NCBI GenBank assembly: GCA_963854735.1
Contig: OY978098.1
Span: forward strand, 1 to 64,000
DNA: 64,000 bases
Direction of reading: 5' to 3'
Origin: Marvania coccoides
Lineage: Eukaryota > Chlorophyta > Trebouxiophyceae > Chlorellales > Chlorellaceae
Position numbers and translations under genes: made by a program. This document shows, one piece after another, positions 10,769 to 53,106 of this stretch (the stretch's first letter is position 1; the number at the start of each line of letters is the position of its first letter). The notes under the pieces were generated by a model. That model had not been told where the DNA came from. It made no database searches and saw only the letters and a program-made list of their open reading frames with translations.

Positions 10769-12626
10769 GCCTCAAAAAATAATAAACTGGGTGCGGAGCT
10801 GGGGGGGTGGAAAGGAAGACATCCTTTCTTCCACCCACCCACCACTTTCTTTTCGCTCCAGCCTGCGCCCGCCGCGCCCTCGGCCTCGTCCTCGGCATGC
10901 CAATGGTGCCTTCGCTTGGGGGTGGTTCCCCATACCCAGGCCGCCACCTCAGTACACACATTTGGGGGCACGCACAAAATGCAATGTGTGTACTCCTCTG
11001 CGCGCCAGGCAACCACGCTTTTGCCGGCGGAAATTCGACCAGCGGACTGGCGCAGCCCACCCGGAGGGCGCCGGCCTCAAAAAATAATGCAACTGGGTGC
11101 GGAGCTGGGGGGGTGGAAAGGAAGACATCCTTTCTTCCACCCACCCACCACTTTCTTTTCGCTCCAGCCTGCGCCCGCCGCGCCCTCGGCCTCGTCCTCG
11201 GCATGCCAATGGTGCCTTCGCGTGGGGGTGGTTCCCCATACCCAGGCCGCCACCTCAGTACACACATTTGGGGGCACGCACAAAATGCAATGTGTGTACT
11301 CCTCTGCGCGCCAGGCAACCACGCTTTTGCCGGCGGAAATTCGACCAGCGGACTGGCGCAGCCCACCCGGAGGGCGCCGGCCTCAAAAAATAATGCAACT
11401 GGGTGCGGAGCTGGGGGGGTGGAAAGGAAGACATCCTTTCTTCCACCCACCCACCACTTTCTTTTCGCTCCAGCCTGCGCCCGCCGCGCCCTCGGCCTCG
11501 TCCTCGGCATGCCAATGGTGCCTTCGCGTGGGGGTGGTTCCCCATACCCAGGCCGCCACCTCAGTACACACATTTGGGGGCACGCACAAAATGCAATGTG
11601 TGTACTCCTCTGCGCGCCAGGCAACCACGCTTTTGCCGGCGGAAATTCGACCAGCGGACTGGCGCAGCCCACCCGGAGGGCGACGGCCTCAAAAAATAAT
11701 GCAACTGGGTGCGGAGCTGGGGGGGTGGAAAGGAAGACATCCTTTCTTCCACCCACCCACCACTTTCTTTTCGCTCCAGCCTGCGCCCGCCGCGCCCTCG
11801 GCCTCGTCCTCGGCATGCCAATGGTGCCTTCGCGTGGGGGTGGTTCCCCATACCCAGGCCGCCACCTCAGTACACACATTTGGGGGCACGCACAAAATGC
11901 AATGTGTGTACTCCTCTGCGCGCCAGGCAACCACGCTTTTGCCGGCGGAAATTCGACCAGCGGACTGGCGCAGCCCACCCGGAGGGCGCCGGCCTCAAAA
12001 AATAATGCAACTGGGTGCGGAGCTGGGGGGGTGGAAAGGAAGACATCCTTTCTTCCACCCACCCACCACTTTCTTTTCGCTCCAGCCTGCGCCCGCCGCG
12101 CCCTCGGCCTCGTCCTCGGCATGCCAATGGTGCCTTCGCTTGGGGGTGGTTCCCCATACCCAGGCCGCCACCTCAGTACACACATTTGGGGGCACGCACA
12201 AAATGCAATGTGTGTACTCCTCTGCGCGCCAGGCAACCACGCTTTTGCCGGCGGAAATTCGACCAGCGGACTGGCGCAGCCCACCCGGAGGGCGCCGGCC
12301 TCAAAAAATAATGCAACTGGGTGCGGAGCTGGGGGGGTGGAAAGGAAGACATCCTTTCTTCCACCCACCCACCACTTTCTTTTCGCTCCAGCCTGCGCCC
12401 GCCGCGCCCTCGGCCTCGTCCTCGGCATGCCAATGGTGCCTTCGCTTGGGGGTGGTTCCCCATACCCAGGCCGCCACCTCAGTACACACATTTGGGGGCA
12501 CGCACAAAATGCAATGTGTGTACTCCTCTGCGCGCCAGGCAACCACGCTTTTGCCGGCGAAAATTCGACCAGCGGACTGGCGCAGCCCACCCGGAGGGCG
12601 CCGGCCTCAAAAAATAATGCAACTGG
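10769..12626. repeat. Subtelomeric satellite: six tandem ~306-bp units plus a partial unit
   Basis: Units start with GCCTCAAAAAATAAT at about 10769, 11074, 11380, 11686, 11992 and 12298, with a truncated seventh start at 12604. They are almost identical. Visible differences are CGCTTGGG (units 1, 5, 6) versus CGCGTGGG (units 2-4), a C-to-A change at the end of unit 3, one G-to-A change in unit 6, and a one-base difference in the first unit. Units are GC-rich. Because 306 is a multiple of three, several frames on both strands stay open through the array (up to 682 codons). These are repeat artefacts rather than genes, since both strands and several frames are open at once with no start or codon-bias preference. 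Confidence 0.97.
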
Positions 12627-13503
12627 GGCGGAATGTGCGTAGAAGAAAGTGACATTTTCTTTCTTCCAACTCCCCACCACTTTCTTTTTACACCCAACTG
12701 AGGCTCTCAAATGCTGTATTTTCGTATGCAGATTATGAATATCATATTTACATAGATTCATTCTTCTTAACAATGAATTTATTGTTTGGAAACTAGAAAT
12801 ACTGCCTTTCATTCAGGATTTGACCCTGGTGAACTTCTCTGTTGTTCCTGGTGAGGATACCATTGGATGCGTCTTGTGTTGACGGTTCCAAATACATGTT
12901 TATTAGTGTCTGGGGCGCAAAAAATGTAAACCTTAAATGACCCTAAACGATTCCCGGTGGGTAGGTAAAACACCCCTAGTTCCCCATACCCAGGCCGCCA
13001 CCTCAGTACACACATTTGGGGGCACGCACAAAATGCAATGTGTGTACTCCTCTGCGCGCCAGGCAACCACGCTTTTGCCGGCGGAAATTCGACCAGCGGA
13101 CTGGCGCAGCCCACCCGGAGGGCGCCGGCCTCAAAAAATAATGCAACTGGGGCGGAATGTGCGTAGAAGAAAGTGATATTTTCTTTCTTCCAACTCCCTA
13201 CCACTTTCTTTTTACACCCAACTGAGGCTGTCACATGCTGTATTTTCGTATGTAGATTATGAATATCATATTTACATAGATTCATTCTTCTTAACAATGA
13301 ATTTATTGTTTGGAAACTAGAAATACTGCCTTTCATTCAGGATTTGACCCTGGTGAACTTCTCTGTTGTTCCTGGTGAGGATACCATTGGATGCGTCTTG
13401 TGTTGACGGTTCCAAATACATGTTTATTAGCGTCTGGGGCGCAAAAAATGTAAACCTTAAATGACCCTAAACGATTCCCAGTGGGTAGGTAAAACACCCC
13501 TAG
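12456..13503. repeat. Tandem duplication of a 524-bp segment overlapping the end of the satellite
   Basis: The segment 12456-12979 is repeated at 12980-13503 with an exact 524-bp offset. Each copy contains part of a 306-bp satellite unit (the CCCCATACCCAGG to CCGGCCTC portion) followed by an AT-rich stretch that includes CTGCCTTTCATTCAGG. The copies differ at only a few sites (for example GACATTTTC versus GATATTTTC, and GTGTCTGG versus GCGTCTGG). The duplication therefore arose after the satellite and used its edge. Confidence 0.93.
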
Positions 13504-32561: not shown

Positions 32562-34105
32562 ATGATGAAGGCATTCACTCTGGCCCTGGTGCTCGTTGGT
32601 AAGTAGGCTTTTTGTTGGAGGATTGCAATTCCAGAAGTTGCAGGCATCGTTTTTTGCTGTTTGCCGCCGAATACGAGTCTGTTCGGCGCTGTCCACACCC
32701 AATTACACCCGATGCGGCGCAATGTGTGATTGATCGCTGACCATCGGGCCCCTAACCTTTGTTCATCTTGTTTTGCATCTTGCAGCCGGCTTCGCTGCCC
32801 AGGCGAACGCTGTGACCGTCGGCGACGCCGTGGCGTCCCTGTGCCCTGATATCCAGGCCCGCCTCGCCCAGAACACCGTGCTTGGCGCCGCCGTGAACGT
32901 CCTCAAGGATGCTGATATTGGTGGGTGGTTGTCAGAGCTGCACACAAAAAATCCATTATTAATTTCATTCATTACTCAATACAAACTCAAGCATGTCATT
33001 ACCTAACACCAGCTATGCCACTGTCTCCATCCCCCTTGCAGGCGACCTGCCCCCCAACGTCGTGGTTGTCGCCCCCTCTGACGCCGCTTTTGTTGCCACC
33101 ATCGAGGCCCTGGGCACCACCGCCGAGGCTCTCCTGGCCGACACCGAGCTCCTGGCTGCCGTCCTGACTCTGCACCTGGGTGGCGCTGCCGCCACTGATG
33201 CGGCCGAGCTGGGCACCATTGCCGGCCCCCCCATGACCCTGACTGCTGACGGCGAGACCATTGCCCTGGCCGATGCTGCTGAAGCCACCGAGGTGACCGT
33301 GGGTGACTCCACCGTGGGCGTTGAGGAGGTCATTTCCTGCCCCGGCCAGACCGTCCTCTTTGCTGATGCCGTGCTGCTGCCTACCCCCGAGGCCGCAGGC
33401 CCCACCCCTGCTCCCACCCCTGCTCCCACCCCTGCCCCTGGCCCCGCCACCCAGACCCTGACTGTCGGTGACGTTGTCGCGAGCCTGTGCCCCGCCATCA
33501 CCGATGTCCTGAAGACCAGTGACTTCTCCATCCTGCTCGGCCTCCTCACCAACCCCGCCACCCTCAAGGTCGAGATCACCCTGCCCACCGACAAGGAGCT
33601 GGTCATCGCCGCGCCCACCAACGCTGCTTTCGAAGCCCTGCTCGCCAAGGTCGACCCCGCCACCGCTGCCAACACCACCATCATCTTTGAGCTGCTGGCC
33701 AACCACATCGGCCTGGCCGACTCCACCACCTCCGAGGACGCCATGACCCTCTACCCCGGCGGCATGCTCAAGTTCTGGGTTGATGCCGAACCCGCCACCC
33801 TCGAGGACCTGGCCGCCGCTGATGCGGGCACCGGTGCCATCCAGGACGCTGATGCCACCGAGATTGCTGCTGTGGCCGCCGCTGTGGCCTGCGCTGACGA
33901 GCGCCAGTACGCCTTTGCCGTGGACACCGTCCTCGTGCCCAAGGTCTACCAGAATGCCATTGCCCCCACCCCCGCCCCCACCCCCGCCCCCACCCCCACC
34001 CCAGTGTCTCCGACCCCCGCACCCACCCCCACCCCCGCCCCCTCCAGCGCTGTTGCCACCACCTTTGGCCTGGCTGCCGCTGTGGTCATGGCCGTGATGG
34101 CGTAA
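32562..34105 (+). CDS. Fasciclin-like protein with two FAS1 domains and a GPI-type tail
   Basis: Exons 32562-32598, 32786-32920 and 33042-34105 give 411 residues. The signal peptide MMKAFTLALVLVA is split by intron 1. FAS1 domain 1 lies at about residues 25-165 (NVVVVAPSDAAFVATIEAL, VLTLHLGG, TVLFADAVLLP). A hydroxyproline-type linker of TPAP repeats follows. FAS1 domain 2 lies at about residues 198-355 (ELVIAAPTNAAFEALLAKV, LLANHIGL, FAVDTVLVPKVYQ). A second TPAP-rich linker and a C-terminal hydrophobic stretch (TTFGLAAAVVMAVMA) end the protein, which fits GPI-anchor addition. FAS1 domains mediate adhesion. Its two domains and even an intron are nearly identical to the ectodomain of the kinase gene at 46183-49245. 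Confidence 0.92.
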
Positions 34106-35391: not shown

Positions 35392-36348
35392 ATGGGCAGC
35401 CTTTGCTTTTTTCACGTTCTAGCAGGCGAGTAATACCCATTTTACGTGTTGCGCCTCCGTCTGCCCGATTCTCCTTGCCATTTGTGTCCTCAAAATCTTG
35501 GTATTCTGTCGTTCTTGCTCGCAGCCATCGCAGCTCTTCAGTGCACCACGGTCCTCGCCCAGGGCCCCACCGCAGCACCAGGCCTGGCGCCAGGGCTTGC
35601 GCCGGGCCCTGCCCCCGCCCCGGTCCCTCCGGCCACCATCGGCGCTCTGCTTGGCGTAACGTGCCCGACCATCAAGCAGGCCTTGGCCACCCCCGACTAC
35701 TCCGTCCTGGCTACCGCGCTGGCTGACCCCGCCGTGCTTGCTGCCCCCATCACCCTTCCCCCTGCTGGCCAGATCGTGCTGGTGGTGCCCAACAACGCCG
35801 CATTCGACGCTGCCATCGCTGCTGGCGTGCCGCTCAACGAATCCGCGGTGTTGATTGCCGTGCTGAAGCAGCACATTGCGGTGACCTCCAGCATCGAGTC
35901 CATCTCCGCCAACACCACCAACAACGACGTCATCAGTTTCTGGTACAAAGAGCTTGCTGCCTCGGTCATCAACCTGGTGGACAACGCCGACACAGGAGAC
36001 TGCTACATCACAGACAAGGACGAGGTGGAGAAGGCGGTGGTGAGCGGGGCCATCATGTGCCCAGCAGAGAAGCAGTATGCGTTCACGGTGGACAGCGTGC
36101 TCATTCCAGCCAAATACCAGCCTAAAACGCCGCCGCCGCCGCCTCCCAGCCCCGTGCTGCCCCCTGCCCCGGCCCCGGCCCCTATCCCCGCTCCCATCCC
36201 AGCCCCGGAGCCCTCGCCGCCTGCATCGCAGTCCCCCGCAGTCCCTCTCGCGACCCCTCCAAGCCCGCCTCCCCCTGCCAGCGCTGCTTGCTCTGCCGCG
36301 CTGACCTTGGCTGCTGCTGTTTTGATGGCAGTTGTGGTGGTGGCGTAA
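35392..36348 (+). CDS. Fasciclin-like protein with one FAS1 domain and a GPI-type tail
   Basis: Exon 1 (35392-35425) ends at GCAG|GCGAGT, a GC donor, and joins in phase to exon 2 (35525-36348), making 285 residues. Together they form a clean signal peptide, MGSLCFFHVLAAIAALQCTT, whereas the unspliced frame has no ATG. A short Ala/Pro linker follows, then one FAS1 domain (QIVLVVPNNAAFDAAI, AVLKQHIAVTSS, YAFTVDSVLIPAKYQ). A Pro-rich arabinogalactan-like linker with PPPPPP and PAPAPI stretches and a hydrophobic end (LTLAAAVLMAVVVVA) suit GPI anchoring. The domain is clearly diverged from the two nearly identical FAS1 pairs nearby. Likely cell-surface or wall-associated. Confidence 0.88.
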
Positions 36349-36606: not shown

Positions 36607-38193
36607 ATGAGCAGCAAGCGGGGTGTGGTGGCTGCGGTGAACCTTGCGATGGTTCTTGAGCGCGGGAGTGAACAAGTCTTGCCCGCAGTGTACGCCTACG
36701 TCGCGAGGAGCTTTCAGTCATCTCTTCCCATGCTGGGAATGCTCACGCTTGCAAGAAGCCTCTGCCAGGCTTTGGGCTCGCCCCTGGCAGGTCTAGCAGG
36801 CAAGTGCAATACAACAATAAAATCGCCGTCTCCAAACAAGCATCAAAACTCGATTTCTGTATTTTAAAGTGCAGGCTCACATGGCCACCGAGGGTTGCTC
36901 ATTGGAATAGGTGCTAGCTTGTGGGCACTTTGCGCTGCCGTTTTTGCGAGCGCCTCCTCTTTGGCTGTGGCTTTCCCAGCGTGGTCGGTGGCTGGTTTCG
37001 GTCTGTCGCTCATCGTGCCCAACGCACAGTCCCTGGCTGCGGACCTCCACTCCCCCCACCAGCGGGGCCGAGCATTTGGCATGCTCCACCTGTCCTCTTC
37101 CCTCGGCGGTGTCATCGGAGGGCTGGTTGCCACCAACGTGGCTGCCGTGAGCTCTTGGAGGCTGGCTTTCTTCGCCGCCGCTGCCGTAGCTGTGCTCGTG
37201 GGTGCCCTCAGCGTCACCGTCGTGATAGAGCCGACACACACTGAGCAAGAGTGCGATGAAGAACCAGCGGCAGTCACACTTAAATCAGAAGCAGCTTCCC
37301 TGCTTCGCACTCCCACGTTTCTGATTATTGTCGCACAGGGCGCATTTGGCAACATGCCCTGGGTGGCCCTCGGCTACCTCACGCTTTATTTCCAGCTCTT
37401 GGGGCTGACTGCGCTTGCGGCTTCCTCGCTGGTGGCTATCTTCCAGGGTGGCGTCGCGCTGGGCGGGCTCCTAGGAGGGGTCATAGGAGATGCCGCAGCC
37501 ACGCGGTGGCCCATGCACGGGCGCATAGTCGTCGCCCAAACCAGCGTAGCTGCGGGCATTCCGTTTGCCCTCATTTTGTTTGTGGGGATGCATGGAGGCC
37601 CCAGTTTCGTGGGATATGCAGCTGTGATGTCGTTGTTTTCGGTGATCAAGGCATGGCCTGCGCCTGCCTGCAACAACCCAGTGTTTGCTGAGATTGTGCC
37701 GCCACAGCGCAGACCGCTCATTTACGCATTCGATCGCTGCTTTGAGACAGCGCTGGCCTCCGCCACGGCTCCGCTGGTGGGTTTCCTTGCGCAGCGTGGG
37801 TTTGGATTCGTGGGACCAGCAGCGCCGACGGGGGATCCTGCGGTGGACCTCACAAACGCTGCGGCCCTGGCAAAATCGCTGCTTCTGCTCACGTCCGTGC
37901 CGTGGGGCATCGTCTTGCTGCTGTACACCGGCCTGCATTGGAGCTACAGGAAGGATTTGAGGCGTGGGGCGTTGCCATCCGATGATCCTGGTGCAGAGCA
38001 AATGAGAGTGCCCTCGGGGGAGAGCCCTTGGGAGACCGTGCGGCGGCAGGTCGGGTCTAGGAATTTACAAGATTCTGAGGGAGAAGAAGAGGTGCTGCTC
38101 GTGTCCAGCAGCCCCAGGACGACGCTCCAGTGGGGCGGCCCCGCTGGCAGCTCAGCCAACCAGGCAACAGGATTATCTGTCGAAGTTTTATAG
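36607..38193 (+). CDS. Major facilitator superfamily transporter
   Basis: Exon 1 (36607-36799) and exon 2 (36875-38193) are joined across a GC-AG intron (CTAGCAG|GCAAGT), restoring SPLAGLAGSHGHRGLLIGIG between two helices. The 503-residue protein has about 12 membrane segments. The cytoplasmic-loop features are DLHSPHQRGRAFGMLHLSSS, the family-type RG loop after TM4, with GGVIGG and GGLLGGVIGD repeats. The C-terminal tail is long, hydrophilic and acidic. The general arrangement resembles Spinster-like or sugar-phosphate MFS carriers of plants, but the substrate is unknown. Its stop lies only 72 bp before the next gene on the same strand. Confidence 0.85.
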
Positions 38194-44063: not shown

Positions 44064-44785
44064 GCAAACGCGGCATACGTGTAGCAATATTAATACTGCA
44101 GCAGGGTTCAGCATTTCTTCTTCTTTTCTTTCGGGAATCCATTTCTTTCCACTTCCTAATTTACTCACGTTTAAAGCTTATTCTTCACCGCTTTTTGATT
44201 GACGATTGTGTTTATTTTGTATTGACCAATTTGCGGCAGCATGGAACCACGCCATTTTACTGTTGCCTCTGCCAAAATAGCACTGCTGTGTTTGTATTGG
44301 CTTTGTGTCCTTGGGCCTGGACTGCATCGACGCCTCTGTCGATCTATTTCTAGGAGAGGCATTCTATAGTTAAATAACAGGCTGACTAAAAGTGCCGTTC
44401 GTTTTGACTTGTCCATACGCATGAATCTTAATCATACATAATACTCCTTTGAGAAATAAGACTGAGCTTAACTATCCTCGGTGCTTATTGGGCATATGAA
44501 TAATACTCCGCAGCTTTACACGCAACAACAGACAGGACTGGATATTGAAATGTTATGGTGGTTTTTGTGTTTGTTTTTAACCGAGACGCATTTCGCAGCA
44601 GGCAGACATCTCTACAGTCTTAATAATTAAAATATCTGGAAACGACCAAGGGGTTCTTTTCTCATCCATAATGTGTACTACAGGCGAACGTCTCCACGAG
44701 AAAATCAAAAAAGCAAAAGCAAGCAAATAGCAAGCACGGGTATGTCGATCAGTCATTAGAATTCTTCAGCACGCCTCATTTCCCA
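44064..44785. other. Convergent intergenic region, about 0.7 kb
   Basis: AT-rich sequence between the Gln-rich gene and the OSB gene. No coding or RNA feature is recognised. Confidence 0.45.
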
Positions 44786-45751
44786 TTAAAACGGCGGCAC
44801 TCCTCCGTTCATCTTGTCCAGCTTCTCCAGCTCCTGCTTCACCCACGCGGGCGTGGAGCGGCTTTCGATCCACAGCGCCGGCGCCTCCCTGCCGCCCTCC
44901 TTGCGCTTGAAGTCTGGCGAGTTTTCCTTGAGCTTGCGCTGCCTGTTGTCGTACCATCCAGAGGTGTCCTCGAAGAAATTCATCCAAAGCTCCTCGGTGG
45001 TGGCCACGGCACCGCCGCCAGCTGCAGCTGCGGGGGCCTGCGTGGCGGCTGCCGCTCCCTGGGCAGCAGAGGGGGCGCTGTTGGTGTTGCTACTGTAGGA
45101 AGAAGGAGCGGCAGGCTGCTGCGACTGCCAGGAAGAGCCACCACCAGACGGGGAGGGTGGTCTGTCTGAGCGCACCCTGTTGATGGTGTTGGCCACCAGC
45201 TTGAGCTTGGTGCGCTGCTGCCCCGTGACCGCGTCGTTCCAGGCGTCGACCTTCAGGTACCCCTCCACAGCAACGCGCTGCCCCTTGCTCAGCTCCACCG
45301 CCGCAGAGTCGGCCAGACCCCCCCAGGCCTCGACATCAAACCACTGGGTGGCAGCGTTCTTGCCGGGCGTGAAGGCCAGGCTCCAATTGGTCACCTTGTT
45401 GCCGCTCTCAAGGTACCGAATCTCGGGCTTCTGGCCCACGTTGCCGATCAGGGAGATCGAGTTGGCAACCTTGGGGGAGAAATCCACGTCGGCAATGGGC
45501 GGGGAGTCGGCGGCAGCCTCGTACTGCTGCTGCTGGTATGCGCTCGTGGCGGTGCAGCGGCGAAAATGCTGGGGGGCGAAGGCGGAGGAGGCGCGAGCGG
45601 CGCTGGGTGCGCCGAAAATAGAGTTCAAGGCATGCGGGTGGGTGGTATGTGAGGTGGGGGCCACGCCTGCGCTTGCGTTCGCTCCGATGCGAATGCTGGA
45701 AGCGCCGGACGACACCCTAGTTGCGAACCGCATGACCAGGCCGCGGATCAT
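44786..45751 (-). CDS. OSB: Organellar single-stranded DNA-binding protein, OSB type
   Basis: Single exon, 321 residues. The N-terminus (MIRGLVMRFATRVSSGASSI) looks like a mitochondrial or plastid presequence. An SSB-like OB fold follows (ANSISLIGNVGQKPEIRYL, WFDVEAWGGLADSAAVELSKG, RVAVEGYLKVDAWND). After a Ser/Ala/Gln-rich linker comes the plant-specific PDF motif: LWMNFFEDTSGWYDNR, then NSPDFKRKEGG, then LWIESRSTPAWVKQELEKL. OSB proteins bind single-stranded organelle DNA; in Arabidopsis, OSB1 limits mitochondrial recombination. The PDF motif is a plant-lineage marker and supports a green-lineage host. Confidence 0.92.
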   Translation of the reverse strand: MIRGLVMRFATRVSSGASSIRIGANASAGVAPTSHTTHPHALNSIFGAPSAARASSAFAPQHFRRCTATSAYQQQQYEAAADSPPIADVDFSPKVANSISLIGNVGQKPEIRYLESGNKVTNWSLAFTPGKNAATQWFDVEAWGGLADSAAVELSKGQRVAVEGYLKVDAWNDAVTGQQRTKLKLVANTINRVRSDRPPSPSGGGSSWQSQQPAAPSSYSSNTNSAPSAAQGAAAATQAPAAAAGGGAVATTEELWMNFFEDTSGWYDNRQRKLKENSPDFKRKEGGREAPALWIESRSTPAWVKQELEKLDKMNGGVPPF

Positions 45752-46182
45752 TCGGCGATTTATGAGGTTTATTTTTTATTTTGACGCCCTGTTGCTGGGC
45801 TTCGCCAAAAAAAAATGCGAGTGCGCCAAAAAAATCTCGAAAATTTTGCGCCAAGACGACTCTGTGACCAAGCGAGCTGCAGCAGACTCATTCGCTATCA
45901 AGACGACATCTAGACGGCATAGAGAAGGTGACAGCTGCGTGTTTCCTCGATCTCGAGTTGGAGAGAGGCAATTTTCATGCTTCCTTCCAGTCCACCGCCC
46001 GCCGCACTTAATTTGTTTCCACACAGCTTCAAGTTGTTTTGAAACCCAACACCTAATACGCAGTTAACAATTTCCATGCCTGTTGAAATAAAGTGGTGGG
46101 CAATATCTGACTTCCTGTAATCCAGATTAATTTATTCGTTTACTACGCAGTCTCATTGAAACTACTCGAAACCCCACCTCAC
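45752..46182. other. Intergenic region downstream of the receptor kinase
   Basis: 431 bp between the OSB start and the kinase stop, both on the minus strand. A run of open plus-strand codons here is a fortuitous extension of OSB antisense. No feature is recognised. Confidence 0.4.
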
Positions 46183-49100
46183 TCAGGTCATCCTGCGCAG
46201 CTCGGCCGCAATCTCTCCAAAGCTGGGCCGATCCTGCGGGTCCTGGGCCCAGCACCGGCGCATCAGCGCAATGTAAGCCTCCAAAGATGCCATCGGCATT
46301 TCAGGGCCGAAGCCAGGGAGCTCAGGAAGGGGAGGCAGCTGCAGGCGCTCGCCTCCCACTACCTTCACAGGGATTGTAAATGGGTTAACGTCCTCCCACG
46401 GCAGCCTCCATGTGAGCAGCTCCCACATACAAACGCCAAACGAGAAGACGTCGGATTCTGCGATGGCTCTGTCTCCTTTGATCACTTCAGGCGCTATCCA
46501 ACGCGGGTTTGAGGCACCACCGACAGTTGCGATGGAATTACGGGTCGCCTCGCTTGCAATCTTGCTTAGCCCCATGTCCGCTGAAGAAAAAAGAAAAAAA
46601 TTGCGGTGACTGGGTTAGAAAACCCCCACAACAAATAGCAATAAAGTTTCTTCTACTCACCAACTTTGATCGCCCACGACGGGTCAACCAGTAGGTTGGG
46701 CGTCTTTAAGTCGCGGTGGATGATCTGAGGCTGGCGTGTGTGAAGATGGAGCATGCCGGAGGCAGCGTCGGCTGCCATCAAGAGACGGCGCTGCCAAGTC
46801 AGCTCAGAAGCGGCCTGGGCGTCCTCCCTTCCCTTTTTCAGAACGTCAAACAAAGATCCCTTTGAGCAATATTCGATTGCAATTGCTGGCGGATCCTGCA
46901 AAGAATCATGTGTTCATTCTTGAGAAATGCATATTACGAAGAAAATGCTGCATTCTAAAAATTCAACCTTACCATGCAAAATCCGACGAGCAGAGCCACA
47001 TTGGGGTGTCTCAGGCTGGCCATCACGCTGACTTCAGCAACCAAATCATCTCGGGAGGCCATGGCCACGCTCTGAGCACTGTTGAGAGCCCCTGTGGCAG
47101 ATGCCTCGTTCAAAGCCCTGGCATCAACCAGAAGCTTCAGCGCCACCGGCGTGTGGTGCACTTCCCCTAAAAACACCTTGCCGAAAGACCCCAGCCCCAG
47201 AGGCTTCAGCACGCGAACGGTGTCGGATCCAGAAGCCCAGGTGAACTCCAGTGATTTGATGTGGTCAGGCACTTGCTTATCTTCAGCGCTGACTGTTCTG
47301 CGCAGGGAAAGCGCGGGCGGGCGGCTGGAAATCCACTCCAGCACAGGATCGGTTGAGTGGCGCATGGTGGACAACGATGAAAGCAGCATGGAACCCTCTG
47401 GGAGGGTGGGGGGGAGGGCACGCAGTCCAGGATCTCCAGAGGGACCAGAGCCCTTTGAAATTGCCGCTGACTCGTTAGGAAAAGCTGTCGGGACCACCAT
47501 TACGCGAGATTCAGCTATCTCGAGATCCGCTGGTGGCTCTTGCAGGCTTGCATCGCCATTTCTGCGGTGCTTCTTCTTCCGCTGCCACACTATGGCGCCC
47601 ACAACGGCACCAGCAACGACCACTCCAGCCACAACCCCGCCGACAATTGCCCCAATGGGGGCAGAAGATGACGATGTCGTTTCCAGCGGAGGCGGGGGGG
47701 CAACCGAATCGGCAATGACAGCAGGCGATGCAGGGGGTGACGGAGACTTTGGCGCTGGACTTGGGGTTGCATTAGGGCCATTGATGGGAGTGGGAGAGGG
47801 GGCAATGGCATTCTGGTAGACCTTGGGCACGAGGACGGTGTCCACCGCGAAGGCGTACTGGCGCACGTCAGCGCAGGCCACAGCGGCGGCCACAACGGCG
47901 GTCTCGGTGGCGTCAGCGTCCTGTATGGCACCGGTGCCCTCAGCGGCGGCGGCCAGGCCCGCGAGGGTGGCGGGATTGGCACCAACCCAGAACTTGAGCA
48001 TGCCGCCGGGGTAGAGGGTCATGGCGTCCTCGGAGGTGGTGGAGTCGGCCAGGCCGATGTGGTTGGCTAGCAGCTCAAAGATGATGGTGGTGTTGGCAGC
48101 GGTGGCGGGGTCGACCTTGGCGAGCAGGGCTTCGAAAGCAGCGTTGGTGGGCGCGGCGATGACCAGCTCCTTGTCGGTGGGCAGGATGATCTCGACCTTG
48201 AGGGTGGGAGGGTTGGTGAGGAGGCCGAGCAGGATGGAGAAGTCACTGGTCTTCAGGACATCGGTGATGGCAGGGCACAGGCTCGCGACAACGTCACCGA
48301 CAGTCAGGGTCTGGGTCTGGGTGGCGGGGCCAGGGACAGGGGTAGGAGCAGGGGTGGGAGCAGGGGTGGGTCCTGCAGCCTCGGGGGTAGGCAGCAGCAC
48401 GGCATCAGCAAAGATGGCGGTCTGGCCGGGGCAGGAGACGATGACCTCTTCAACGCCCACGGTGGAACCACCTACCGTCACCTCGGTGGCTTCGGCAGCA
48501 TCGGCCAGGGCAATGGTCTTGCCGTCAGCAGTCAGGGTCATGGCGGGGCCGGCAATGGTGCCCAGCTCGGTCGCATCAGTGGCGGCAGCGCCACCCAGAT
48601 GCAGAGTCAGGACGGCAGCCAGGAGCTCGGGGTCGGACAGGAAAGCCTCGGCGGTGGTGCCCAGGGCCTCGATGGTGGCAACAAAAGCGGCGTCAGAGGG
48701 GGCGACAACCACGACGTTGGCGGGCAGGTCGCCTGCAACGGGATGGAGACAGTGGCATAGTTCGCGTTAGGTAATGAAATGATTGAGTTTGTATTGATTA
48801 ATGAATGAATTGATATTGGATTTTTTGTGTGCAGCTCTGACAACCACCCACCAATATCAGCATCCTTGAGGACGTTCACGACGGCGCCAAGCACGGTGTT
48901 CTGGGCGAGGCGGGCCTGGATATCAGGGCACAGGGACGCCACAGCGTTGCCGACGGTCACAGCAAAAGCATGGCGGGCTGTAATCGCTGCATGCGCACAC
49001 AAAGGAACAATTCGTGATCGTGGATGTATTTGGAAATACGTGTGCCAGGGGGTAGAGCATATTGTGTTTATGAGTTGAAGGATCGCATTGTACACGTGTG

Positions 49101-49245
49101 GCAATTGAAGTGAGCCTCGCCGCACATACACGTATCAACATTTCAACCATGCCCAATGGCGATCCCATGCCCCATCCTGCAGCGAACGAAAAATAGCTAG
49201 CTTACCTATGAAAAGGAGAAAAACACGAGCGCTGGACGTCATCAT
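46183..49245 (-). CDS. Receptor-like protein kinase with two extracellular FAS1 domains
   Basis: The start at 49245 gives a signal peptide (MMTSSARVFLLFIA) split by an intron as in the FAS1 gene at 32562. Two FAS1 domains follow (about residues 20-350; PSDAAFVATIEAL and PTNAAFEALLAKV), with a TPAP linker. A Pro/Ser-rich stalk comes next, then one membrane helix (IGAIVGGVVAGVVVAGAVVG) with a stop-transfer KKKHRR. The cytoplasmic part has a ~130-residue linker and a complete protein kinase: GLGSFGKVFLG, VALKLL, VAEVSVMASLRHPN, IIHRDLKTPNLLV, ADMGLSKI (DMG instead of DFG), WIAPEVI, SDVFSFGVCMWELLTWRLPW and CWAQDPQDRPSF. The fold is TKL-like. Later exons start at about 46898 and 46577. Total length is about 860 residues. 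All frames connect in phase. Confidence 0.88.
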
Positions 49246-49529
49246 GTTATCATCCACCGCAGAAGCGTTATCCTCGGCTTAATAATAATTCCGTGAAGAA
49301 TTTAAGAATGGAATGTATCGATTTATAGCATTAGCTGGGCATTAGCATGTCCTTGTCTTTCTGCGAAAATGTTACGACTTTTATTTTTGACCATATTTTT
49401 GGTCTTAACTACAATTGCTAAATTCCAGAGCCCGATAGAGTCTTCTAAAAGGTGGCGCTGGAGCCCGAGAAGCTTCCTTCCAGAGATACATCTTTTTTCA
49501 AATCAAACAATTTAGCTTGCACTCGGTCG
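49246..49529. promoter_or_regulatory. Divergent promoter region, FAS1 kinase/SLC10-like transporter
   Basis: 284 AT-rich bp between divergent start codons. No specific element is recognised. Confidence 0.4.
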
Positions 49530-51115
49530 ATGACTGCGGATTCCACCTCAGCGCCACCGGGAAACGTGCAAAATGATTCGGCAACACCGTTGAGTAGCTC
49601 CGCCGTGCCCACGCCTAGGGAAGATGCGCTGCAGAGGGAGCCAACCACCGACATTACCGCCGCCGCTGCTGAAGCAAACACAACGCAAAAATGCAGCCGC
49701 CTCCGCGCCCGGCTGCCTTCCTGGAAGACCACCAAGGCATTTTTGCTAAAGCACTTTTTGGTCATCGGCCTGGTCACCGCCGTGGTGTTCTCTCTGGCGT
49801 GCCCGTGGCCTGGAGCTGCCGTTGACTCTGTTGAAGTGGGATCATACAGCGTGTTCGCCACCATCAACATCATCACCATCTTCATCATCTCCGGCCTCAC
49901 TCTGCGCACCCAAGAGATCAAGGATGCAGCTCGACAGTGGTACGCTGGTCTGGTGGGCGTCGTGTCCATCATGCTGCTCACACCCAGCGTGGGATTCGCG
50001 CTGGTGGAGCTGCCCTTCACCCCTCCCGCCTACAGCTACGGCCTGACAATCTTCGCGCTGTGCCCCACCACCATCGCCTCTGGCATCACGCTTGTGAGGG
50101 CGGCAAGGGGCAACGACGCCCTGGCGCTGATGCTCACGGTGGTCACAAACGTGCTGTCGGTGTTTGTGCTGCCGTTCACGGTGCCTCTGGTCATCTCGCA
50201 GGCGGGGGACGTGAGCCTGGACCCCGTGAGTCTGTTGGTGAAGCTGGTGATCACAATTTTGGTGCCGCTGGCAGTGGGCAAGCTGTTGCAAGAGCTAATC
50301 CCGTGGGTGCGCAAACAGGTGGCCGCCCACAAGACCGCACTGTCTCTCATGTGAGCTGCCACTATTTGGCTGGTTCTCACACTAGTTTTTCTTTTCCCCC
50401 ATTAATAGTATTTACTTTACTATTGTATTTGTCATGCAGAAACAATGGGTCCCTCATTTGCATTGTGTGGCAGACGCTGAGCGCGGCGCAGGGAGAAGTG
50501 GTGAACACCGCCTTTGGCACGCTGTGCCTCATTGCGGTCGCGGCAGTCCTGCTGCACGTCCTCTTCTTGGTGGTGAACTTTGCCATCGTCAAGTGAGAAT
50601 GGAGTATATTATTATAAGAGTACTCCCTCTAATCAGTTCTTCTGCCAACTATTCCGACATTATTTCCCCCCCTTCCCAGGCTCCTGCGGCTCCCCCATCG
50701 CGAAAGCGCGGCAGTGCTGATCATGGGGGCAGAGAAAACTCTGCCCATGGCCGTCAGCGTAATTGCAGCGCTGCCTTCAGGTTTGGGCACTGCGGGGCAG
50801 CTGACCGTGCCCTGCGTGCTTGCGCACATTAGCCAAGTGTTGATAGACGCGTTTATGGCTGAGCGCATCGGCAAAAGGAGCAAAGCCAGAGAGGCGGCTG
50901 CAGCAGCAAAGGAGGCGCTGCCAGTGACAAATGGCGATGTTGCTGCAGCTGAAGAATCAACAAATGGAGGCTTAAGGCAGTGTGGCTTCCAAAAGAAGGC
51001 TTCTTCTGCCAAGCTTGACTCTGATTCATCCATTTCAGTGCCGCCAAATGAGGAGGAGGGCACCACGGAAGGACATCCACAACCAATCACGGCATTGCCC
51101 AAGATTTATTATTAA
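49530..51115 (+). CDS. SLC10A7-like (bile acid:sodium symporter superfamily) membrane protein
   Basis: Three exons starting at 49530 (MTADSTSAPPGN). Junctions are at ~50351 (CTCAT|GTGAGC) and ~50594, both in phase. A ~70-residue polar leader precedes ten predicted membrane segments: FLVIGLVTAVVFSLACPWPG, FATINIITIFIISGLTLR, LVGVVSIMLLTPSVGFALVE, LTIFALCPTTIASGITLVRA, LALMLTVVTNVLSVFVLPF, LVKLVITILVPLAVGK, IVWQTLSAAQ, LIAVAAVLLHVLFLVV and TLPMAVSVIAALPSG. The order and the CPTT-SG core match SLC10A7 and plant relatives (BASS-like). The animal protein affects Golgi calcium and glycosylation; the substrate here is unknown. The polar C-terminal tail is Ala/Glu-rich. Confidence 0.85.
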
Positions 51116-51335: not shown

Positions 51336-53106
51336 TTATCTTGTTACGTCTTCAGGCTCGAGCAGCGGCGCCTCTTCGTCTATTGGCACGTCGACATCTC
51401 CGCTGCTGTAGCACTCTGCCGTGCACTCGCCTTCTGGTTCATCAACGGGAAACAGTGTGGCCCCCGCTATCCGCGCCGCCTGCGCCACCCCAGTTTGAAA
51501 CGCCCCTTGCAGCGACGATGGATGTTCAGTGCTGGTGGCCTCGCCCGCAAACAGCAGCGTGCTGCCCACTGGCTCAGCCAACGTGGCGCGGTGTGCAGGC
51601 GTGCCTCCCGCTGCGTGGTAGCTGTGGGTGCCTCGTGAGTAGGGGTTGAGCCCCCACCGCGTGACCAAATAATCCACTGGCTCCGGAACGCTGGTGTACT
51701 TCAGTCGCAGCGCGCTCACAGCTGCAGCCACCACCTCCGCGTCCGTCTGATTCTCCATTACTGATGACGCGCTGATGCCAGGCAGCGCCACCAGCAGCGC
51801 GTCGCCAGTGAAAGTGTACATGGACACGAAATCAACCCAGCCGCCGACCGGAGACTTTGCCACCCGGATGACCTCGTCCCGCTCGCTCCAAAAGGGGGCG
51901 CTAAACAAGAGGTGCACTGGGTTGAGGGTGCCCACGCCCAGCCTGCTCATGGCTTCCAGAGTGACGTCAGGCAGCGGTGGGTCAAACGCCACCGCCCCCT
52001 CGTGGAGCACCCCCAGAGGCAGGGTGCAGATCACAAACTGGGAGCGGTAGGCCTCCCCAGTTTCCAGCTCCACCGTGGCGTTGAATTCTGAGATGGCGAT
52101 GGCGGACACGCGGGAGTCCACCTGGACGCGGGCGCTGTTGGCCGTGGAGTTGACCAACCCAAACAGCCCAGCGGTGACACGCGACAGGTTCCCCAGGGAA
52201 ATGGCGGGCAGCCCAGTGTAGTTAAAGGGCTCCTCGGTGAAGGCATCCGAAATGAAGGAGGCAGGGGCGGCGCTCGCTACGGCGGTTTGAAACACCAGAG
52301 GGGAAGACAGCGTGCGCGCTTGCGCTGCGGCTCCGCCGTCGCTGCCGCTGCCCAAGTAAATTTCTTCAACTCCATTGGTGCCTCCTTCTTGAGGATCTGC
52401 ATCACCCGCCTCTTCTCGCCATTCTGCTGTTTCTGCTTCAGCGTCCAGAGAGCGGTCGAAAGCCGATCCAAACGTCGCGCGCGGAGAATAAAACTGGTCT
52501 GCCAGCGCCGAAATGGGGTTACTGTCTGCACCCGTCCACCATTGCGCCCCCACCTCCACGCTGCCGTAACCAAACGGCACGCTCAAAATACGGCCGCCAG
52601 CCTCAGCCTACACAAATTGGAAATTCTTTTAGCAATTATTGCAACATAGATTGCGCATACAAATAGTGCACACGAACCCGTGCTTCCAGCACCAGGATGC
52701 TGAGCGTGGTGTTTTGCAGCAGGGCCACCGCTGCCGCCAGCCCCGATAGCCCAGCACCCACAATGATAACGTCGAAGTCGGTCTCAATCCCAAGCTCTTC
52801 CAACTCGCTAGGATACAGGTAGGGGTGCAAATTGCCGTAGTAAATGGGGTCGTAGGTGCTGCGCGTGACTGTTTTTGTGTTGGATTTCTTCCATGAAATC
52901 ACACCGGTGGCAAGAAGAGCAATCACAGTGGCCAGACCAGCCACGATCAGGCCGAGTATTATATAAATTACCAGCCGCGTGGTACAAACTCGTCGTCGTT
53001 GCGGATAATTCTTCCCGGAGGGGGGCTCTTCATAGACATAGGCTGGGTTGACTGTGGAGTGGCTCGGGCCGGCACGGTGTTGGTCAAAGCCATCGTAGGA
53101 CGACAT
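51336..53106 (-). CDS. Membrane-anchored flavin amine oxidase (polyamine oxidase-like)
   Basis: Two exons, starting at 53106 (MSSYDGFDQHRAG). A ~45-residue cytoplasmic leader is followed by one membrane helix (LVIYIILGLIVAGLATVIAL), which predicts a type II orientation. The FAD-binding Rossmann motif is DVIIVGAGLSGLAAAVAL, with VLEAR|AEAGGRI across the intron. The amine oxidase fold continues with VEVGAQWW, VICTLPLGVLHEGAV, LGVGTLNPVHLLFSAPFW and the C-terminal FAD motif LLFAGEATSTEHPSSLQGAF. About 560 residues. Polyamine oxidases and LSD1-type demethylases share this fold; without SWIRM or tower domains this is most like a polyamine oxidase. Several NxS/T sites suit a lumenal or extracellular catalytic domain. 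Confidence 0.87.

Follow-up and report, generated by a model that had tools for sequence, protein, structure and literature searches.

The window, a 64,000-nucleotide stretch at the start of contig OY978098.1 of the green alga Marvania coccoides, carries on its minus strand (49245–46183) a gene of five GT-AG exons that encodes a single chain of 855 aa. By gene model and Pfam, this chain consists, in order, of a signal peptide, two FAS1 domains, a Pro-rich stalk, one membrane helix and a kinase domain with intact catalytic residues. An earlier, sequence-only reading had proposed that these parts form one phase-consistent gene, and the five-exon model confirms this proposal. Exon 1 (49206–49245) encodes the signal peptide and is unlike exon 1 of the kinase-less twin gene described below; when the 282 bp of the 5′ end (49245–48964) were used in a DNA search of the alga’s own genome, they matched only themselves. 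FAS1 domain 1 (residues about 23–171; 48395–48960) runs across intron 2 and is followed by FAS1 domain 2 (residues about 202–368; 47804–48304), a Pro/Ser/Ala/Thr-rich stalk that forms the joint (residues 372–416; 47660–47794), the membrane helix (residues about 417–439; 47591–47659) and a Raf/CTR1-like TKL kinase domain (residues 565–851; 46195–47215), which is split by introns at 46972–46896 and 46660–46581; all of these features lie on the minus strand.

For the whole receptor, Pfam reports a single FAS1 stretch, located in the first domain, at 25.1 bits against a cut-off of 22, and when the two FAS1 pieces are scored singly they reach 17.9 and 14.1 bits, both under the Pfam cut-off. The identity of the second domain is supported by a relative and by a predicted fold, and the FAS1 fold was found for the receptor ectodomain. 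Judged from hydropathy, the chain would have the topology of a receptor-like kinase. Its kinase reads DMG in place of DFG. Because the gene model is itself predicted from sequence, the FAS1 and kinase parts could in principle be separate genes that were misjoined, but this is extremely improbable given that one 603-aa open frame holds most of FAS1 domain 1, all of FAS1 domain 2, the stalk, the membrane helix and the kinase N-lobe, and given that paralogues of the receptor keep the same order of ectodomain, stalk, helix and kinase.

Other frames in the neighborhood, identified by Pfam, encode an SSB protein (44786–45775, minus strand), an SBF-like transporter (49449–50354, plus strand), an amine oxidase (51336–52607, minus strand) and an MFS transporter (36868–38193, plus strand). 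GC content in the window varies from 45 to 64% in 4-kb blocks, compared with 45% for Nannochloris desiccata, and a tandem array at 10769–12632 contains 6.1 copies of a 306-bp unit with a 99% match.

A kinase-less twin and the copied tract

A protein search of the alga’s own genome with the receptor located an 89%-identical ectodomain at 33038–34042, in the same window and on the opposite strand. It belongs to a gene of three exons (32562–32598, 32786–32920 and 33042–34105, plus strand; 32562–34105 overall) that encodes a kinase-less twin of 411 aa, with a signal peptide, two FAS1 domains, a Pro-rich stalk and a hydrophobic C-terminal tail that, by eye, resembles a GPI signal. With its FAS1 match at 31.2 bits, Pro-rich stalk and hydrophobic tail, the twin is a candidate FLA protein, whose GPI anchor and glycosylation are putative. 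Beside the twin lies a third, distant FAS1-like open frame (35434–36348, plus strand; 39–40% identity), for which Pfam gives no match at E 0.05.

At the DNA level, BLASTN aligns receptor positions 48963–47785 with twin positions 32809–33980 at 94.07% identity over 1,181 columns. This tract includes intron 2, in which 109 of 119 aligned bases are alike (91.6%), and it was the only match when 44500–51000 was searched by BLASTN against the window at E 1e-5. Blocks of 60 columns make its edges evident: across the 5′ edge, identity climbs from 0.43 to 0.90, and across the 3′ edge it drops in steps from 0.95 through 0.80 and 0.60 to 0.41; the flanking blocks, at 0.35–0.62, are unmatched. The 5′ edge, near the mature N-terminus, coincides with the site at which the signal peptide is likely cleaved (AVTVG, judged by eye), and the 3′ edge falls at the Pro-rich stalk. 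The two copies are 13.8 kb apart and the two genes 12 kb. Across 348 codons, dS is 0.080 and dN 0.035, and the resulting dN/dS of about 0.44 shows no strong constraint. The architecture and kinase type given by the sequence-only reading stand, but its picture of a stand-alone gene does not: the ectodomain was recently copied, at 94% identity, from a kinase-less gene, and the receptor gene belongs to a group whose ectodomains differ and have in part been exchanged.

Relatives in other algae establish the direction of transfer. A search with the twin against 5.8 billion proteins, with candidates limited to about 226–719 aa, returned 13 matches of 327–716 aa, none of which (0/13) contains a kinase Pfam domain. 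The best of these relatives, P0121 from Nannochloris ‘desiccata’ (44%), has a signal peptide that scores 57 against that of the twin versus 21 against that of the receptor; the signal peptides of receptor and twin score 18 against each other. Moreover, the C-terminal tails of P0121, P0122, P0123, P0125, P0127 and P0129 resemble that of the twin. The exon-3 part offers 23 residues at which receptor and twin differ. Nine relatives, with P0130 omitted and several of the nine being close copies of one another, favor the twin state at 12 of these, the receptor state at 5 and neither at 6. Derivation of the kinase-less gene from the receptor via kinase loss would yield the same identity between the two genes, but it is scarcely credible when relatives of 327–716 aa share the twin’s tail and, in P0121, its signal peptide. 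The signal peptide and tail that relatives share with the twin, together with residue states that favor the twin more often, mark the kinase-less gene as the older form and the receptor as the derived one.

A kinase group with exchanged ectodomains

The closest relative of the receptor’s kinase in the top 60 of 2423 matches to solved structures is CTR1 (PDB 3ppz; 1.4e-49, 172 bits), followed by an EGFR-labelled chain (164 bits) and MAP3K12 (125 bits). None of these 60 is labelled RLK or IRAK, although 5xd6 (99 bits), labelled ‘Protein kinase superfamily protein’, is possibly an RLCK from a plant. Land-plant proteins named EDR1, SIS8 and MAPKKK are found among the best 120 of 1671 kinase matches. 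The domain is a Raf-like TKL kinase, and the initial assignment as TKL-like was right, with Raf-like CTR1 as its closest solved structure. CTR1 itself is not known to have a receptor ectodomain.

Among matches from named organisms, the closest to the receptor’s kinase region is P0006, an RCC1-repeat protein of Nannochloris ‘desiccata’ (63% identical over 302 aa), and P0001 reaches 64%. None of the best 120 of 1671 kinase matches exceeds 75% identity to the own-genome loci L001–L052, and P0006 together with the twin’s relative P0121 makes an affinity of the alga to the Nannochloris clade likely. In a midpoint-rooted tree of 42 rows, comprising the window gene, 19 of 26 other own-genome kinase loci and 22 of 120 protein matches, the receptor falls into a 22-row group (support 97/95) whose inner branching does not fix its position. 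Twelve of the 22 rows come from the alga’s own genome, and their ectodomains are diverse: RCC1 in five (by Pfam in one), LysM, GH9, two Cys-rich kinds, an unnamed kind and FAS1, the twelfth member being C6:773k. Pfam identifies the LysM ectodomain at 5.4e-16 and that of GH9 at 7.7e-40. Two further assignments, DUF3455 for the ectodomain at C13:921k (a guess) and an F5/8-like ectodomain at C1:892k, were rejected for want of Pfam support. The DMG motif recurs in 8 of the 11 other own-genome members, and the rest read DVG, DFG or ERG. RCC1-type domains are present in 11 of the best 120 of 1671 kinase matches, among which neither PF01476 nor PF00759 occurs.

Another member of this group has exchanged its ectodomain. 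Two genes near two chromosome ends, C12:985k (L020) and C13:921k (L025), are 90% identical from stalk to kinase over 1,306 columns and match at 0.89–0.96 in the 5′ end, versus 0.31–0.58 in the intervening ectodomain. The neighboring RCC1 receptor kinases C3:7k and C3:14k (L022 and L024; C3:5455-16960) are 99.5% identical over 1,520 columns that cover the kinase and the 3′ flank. Their ectodomains have diverged, with block identities of about 0.63–0.84, and the pattern looks like recent gene conversion. Elsewhere on C3, an interstitial TTTAGGG telomere array begins at 1935723 and may mark an old chromosome fusion or an assembly join.

Kinase-less twins are also not confined to FAS1. When seven ectodomain kinds were searched against the alga’s own genome, with GPI-like tails judged by eye, four (FAS1, LysM, the C13:921k kind and GH9) had a near twin that lacks a kinase and has a Pro-rich stalk and a GPI-like tail. 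For example, the LysM receptor (C11:529000-534664; L052+L043) combines at least two LysM domains by Pfam with a Pro-rich stalk, a membrane helix and a Raf-like kinase, and its kinase-less twin (C11:496602-497153; 97% aa identity) is about 34 kb away; their DNA is 91.6% identical over a 1,434-column stretch that starts 172 bp upstream of the twin’s ATG and ends at the stalk, with dS of 0.079 and dN of 0.017 over 184 codons. The ectodomain at C13:921k, which has no Pfam match, has a twin at C1:3194k (87–91% aa). A GH9 cellulase-like ectodomain, followed by stalk, membrane helix and kinase, is encoded at C7:394300-400009 (L049+L033), and its kinase-less twin at C1:31257-32041 is 70–75% identical in amino acids. 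In the three twin loci examined for it (3.0–3.3 kb; LysM, C13:921k kind and GH9), no kinase match was detected. For the remaining kinds, Cys A has no twin, and its weak matches (34–47%) fall within about 2 kb of kinase matches; Cys B has no near twin, only a 35–38% neighbor; and the sole RCC1 relative examined, C13:146k (71%), is kinase-less within 3.7 kb and has no GPI-like end in its frame, with other RCC1 relatives at C1:3130k and C1:3.7k. A few related kinases appear to have acquired their sensing parts in much the same way.

Chromosome ends are overrepresented among these loci. The FAS1 receptor gene is 46 kb from a telomere, and 6 of the 12 own-genome members lie less than 50 kb from a contig end versus 0.8 expected; with tandem pairs counted once, 4 of 10 do so (binomial 0.003, a rough value as the members are related). 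All four ends concerned (C2 left, C3 left, C12 right and C13 right) bear telomere repeats. Telomere proximity is not needed, however, since the LysM and GH9 receptors and the two Cys-rich ones lie far from any end.

Origin of the receptor and comparison with known systems

We consider it most likely, with a probability of roughly 0.6, that the gene encodes a young chimeric receptor kinase, in which an older receptor received the double-FAS1 ectodomain of the twin, and that it most likely acts at the plasma membrane. In this model, a surface receptor that already had its own signal peptide, Pro-rich stalk, membrane helix and Raf/CTR1-like kinase would have taken the mature double-FAS1 ectodomain from a nearby gene for a kinase-less, probably GPI-anchored surface protein through a transfer of DNA, for example by ectopic gene conversion or by copying of a segment. 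The FAS1 pair would then read a ligand of FAS1 proteins, be it a wall glycan, the matrix or another FAS1 protein, with output through the Raf-like kinase. The twin would bind the same ligand without a kinase and could serve as a co-receptor or a competitor. A wall or matrix ligand is our first guess, based on the presence of FAS1 pairs in adhesion proteins and on the FLA4–FEI pathway (PMC6032426); wall adhesion would in this way be linked to kinase signaling, as the sequence-only reading had supposed.

A somewhat unlikely alternative is that the FAS1 domains have long been part of the receptor and were refreshed by recent gene conversion from the kinase-less neighbor, making the fusion older and leaving its present function the same. 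Both genes begin with MM, carry a phase-1 intron after 12–13 codons and have 23 nt from there to the tract, which could reflect common descent, and the C3 pair illustrates conversion-like sharing in the kinase group. By contrast, comparison of the two signal peptides gives a low score, and a global alignment of intron 1 shows 48% identity. Searches for FAS1 kinases elsewhere bear on the same question. With receptor residues 1–450 as the query against proteins of 470–1496 aa, 7994 candidates were scored and none reached E <= 0.001, and PF02469 is found in none of the best 120 of 1671 kinase-search matches. The ectodomain search scored only the candidates sharing most words, however, probably including many low-complexity Pro/Ala words, and it missed P0131 (716 aa) and P0132 (491 aa), weak FAS1 relatives that were found via the twin, so its silence is weak evidence against an older FAS1 receptor kinase elsewhere. 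In the alga’s own genome, 17 FAS1 loci with 1.5-kb flanks gave no kinase match, and FAS1 profiles (E 0.01) run over the own-genome loci collected here matched only loci among those 17, the twin and the window gene.

A reading of the chimera as a short-lived by-product of subtelomeric recombination, poorly expressed or functionless, is unlikely. The youth of the gene (dS 0.08), its distance from the telomere and its dN/dS would be compatible with such a fate, but 855 codons are open, splice sites and catalytic residues are in place and similar fusions recur. Quite improbably, the FAS1 pair might bind pigment or lipid, as in the microalgal AstaP carotenoproteins, and the receptor might sense light or oxidative stress; with TGFBIp scoring within 1 Z (11.2), however, the fold is uninformative about the ligand.

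The earlier statement that no well-studied plant receptor kinase with FAS1 domains is known agrees with the literature searched, largely open papers, in which no FAS1 receptor kinase is described; novelty is accordingly provisional. PMC5266747 treats chimeric AGPs with kinase domains, and none of the 12 places covered, out of 46 relevant ones, pairs FAS1 with a kinase; the portions consulted of PMC6032426, PMC7289718, PMC12712428, PMC4678213, PMC10316313, PMC10203261 and PMC12636532 likewise describe no FAS1 receptor kinase.

More broadly, the young chimera and its paralogues are best read as products of a modular chassis for receptors, able to take up ectodomains from surface proteins; their functions are predicted. 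We tentatively extend this reading, at less than even odds, to a general receptor-making system in which the Raf-like chassis repeatedly captures ectodomains of GPI-anchored proteins (FAS1, LysM, GH9 cellulase-like and unnamed) at the Pro-rich stalk and keeps the kinase-less twin, generating matched pairs of receptor and decoy or co-receptor, with recombination, partly near telomeres, feeding the process. If so, the alga would have evolved an independent parallel to the RLKs of plants, one in which SRK/SLG-like pairs are the rule and not the exception. The way in which receptors acquire new sensing parts is usually inferred from old fusions; here, receptor and ectodomain source lie in one window at about 8% synonymous divergence, which makes the step datable and testable. 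Chlorophyte kinases are thereby seen to bear two FAS1 domains in the window gene and LysM or GH9 cellulase-like domains in its paralogues, which suggests that this receptor family arose apart from plant RLKs. The gene may also offer a simple system for FAS1 signaling, a task that Arabidopsis divides between FLA4 and the FEI receptor kinases.

GPI-anchored partners of plant receptor kinases, as in CEBiP/CERK1 and LORELEI/FERONIA, offer parallels to the proposed pairing. The nearest known arrangement would be SRK/SLG, in which the SRK kinase is a plant RLK kinase. At the Brassica S locus, according to PMC10316313, whose reference list names a gene conversion paper, a receptor kinase is linked to a kinase-less protein with a highly similar ectodomain. 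The receptor described here likewise has a linked kinase-less gene with a near-identical ectodomain, whereas SRK/SLG has an S-domain ectodomain and a role in self-incompatibility; the ectodomain here is FAS1, on a Raf-like kinase. Algal-CAM and FLAs are not known to contain a kinase. PMC6032426 describes Algal-CAM of Volvox as a green-alga surface protein with a double FAS1, and places the FAS1 wall protein FLA4/SOS5 of Arabidopsis in one genetic pathway with the receptor kinases FEI1/FEI2; those are separate proteins with LRR ectodomains on the kinases, whereas here FAS1 and kinase form one chain. Finally, the RCC1-repeat receptor kinases of the Nannochloris clade, such as P0006, show by eye the same order of ectodomain, hydrophobic helix and kinase, but with an RCC1 ectodomain in place of FAS1.
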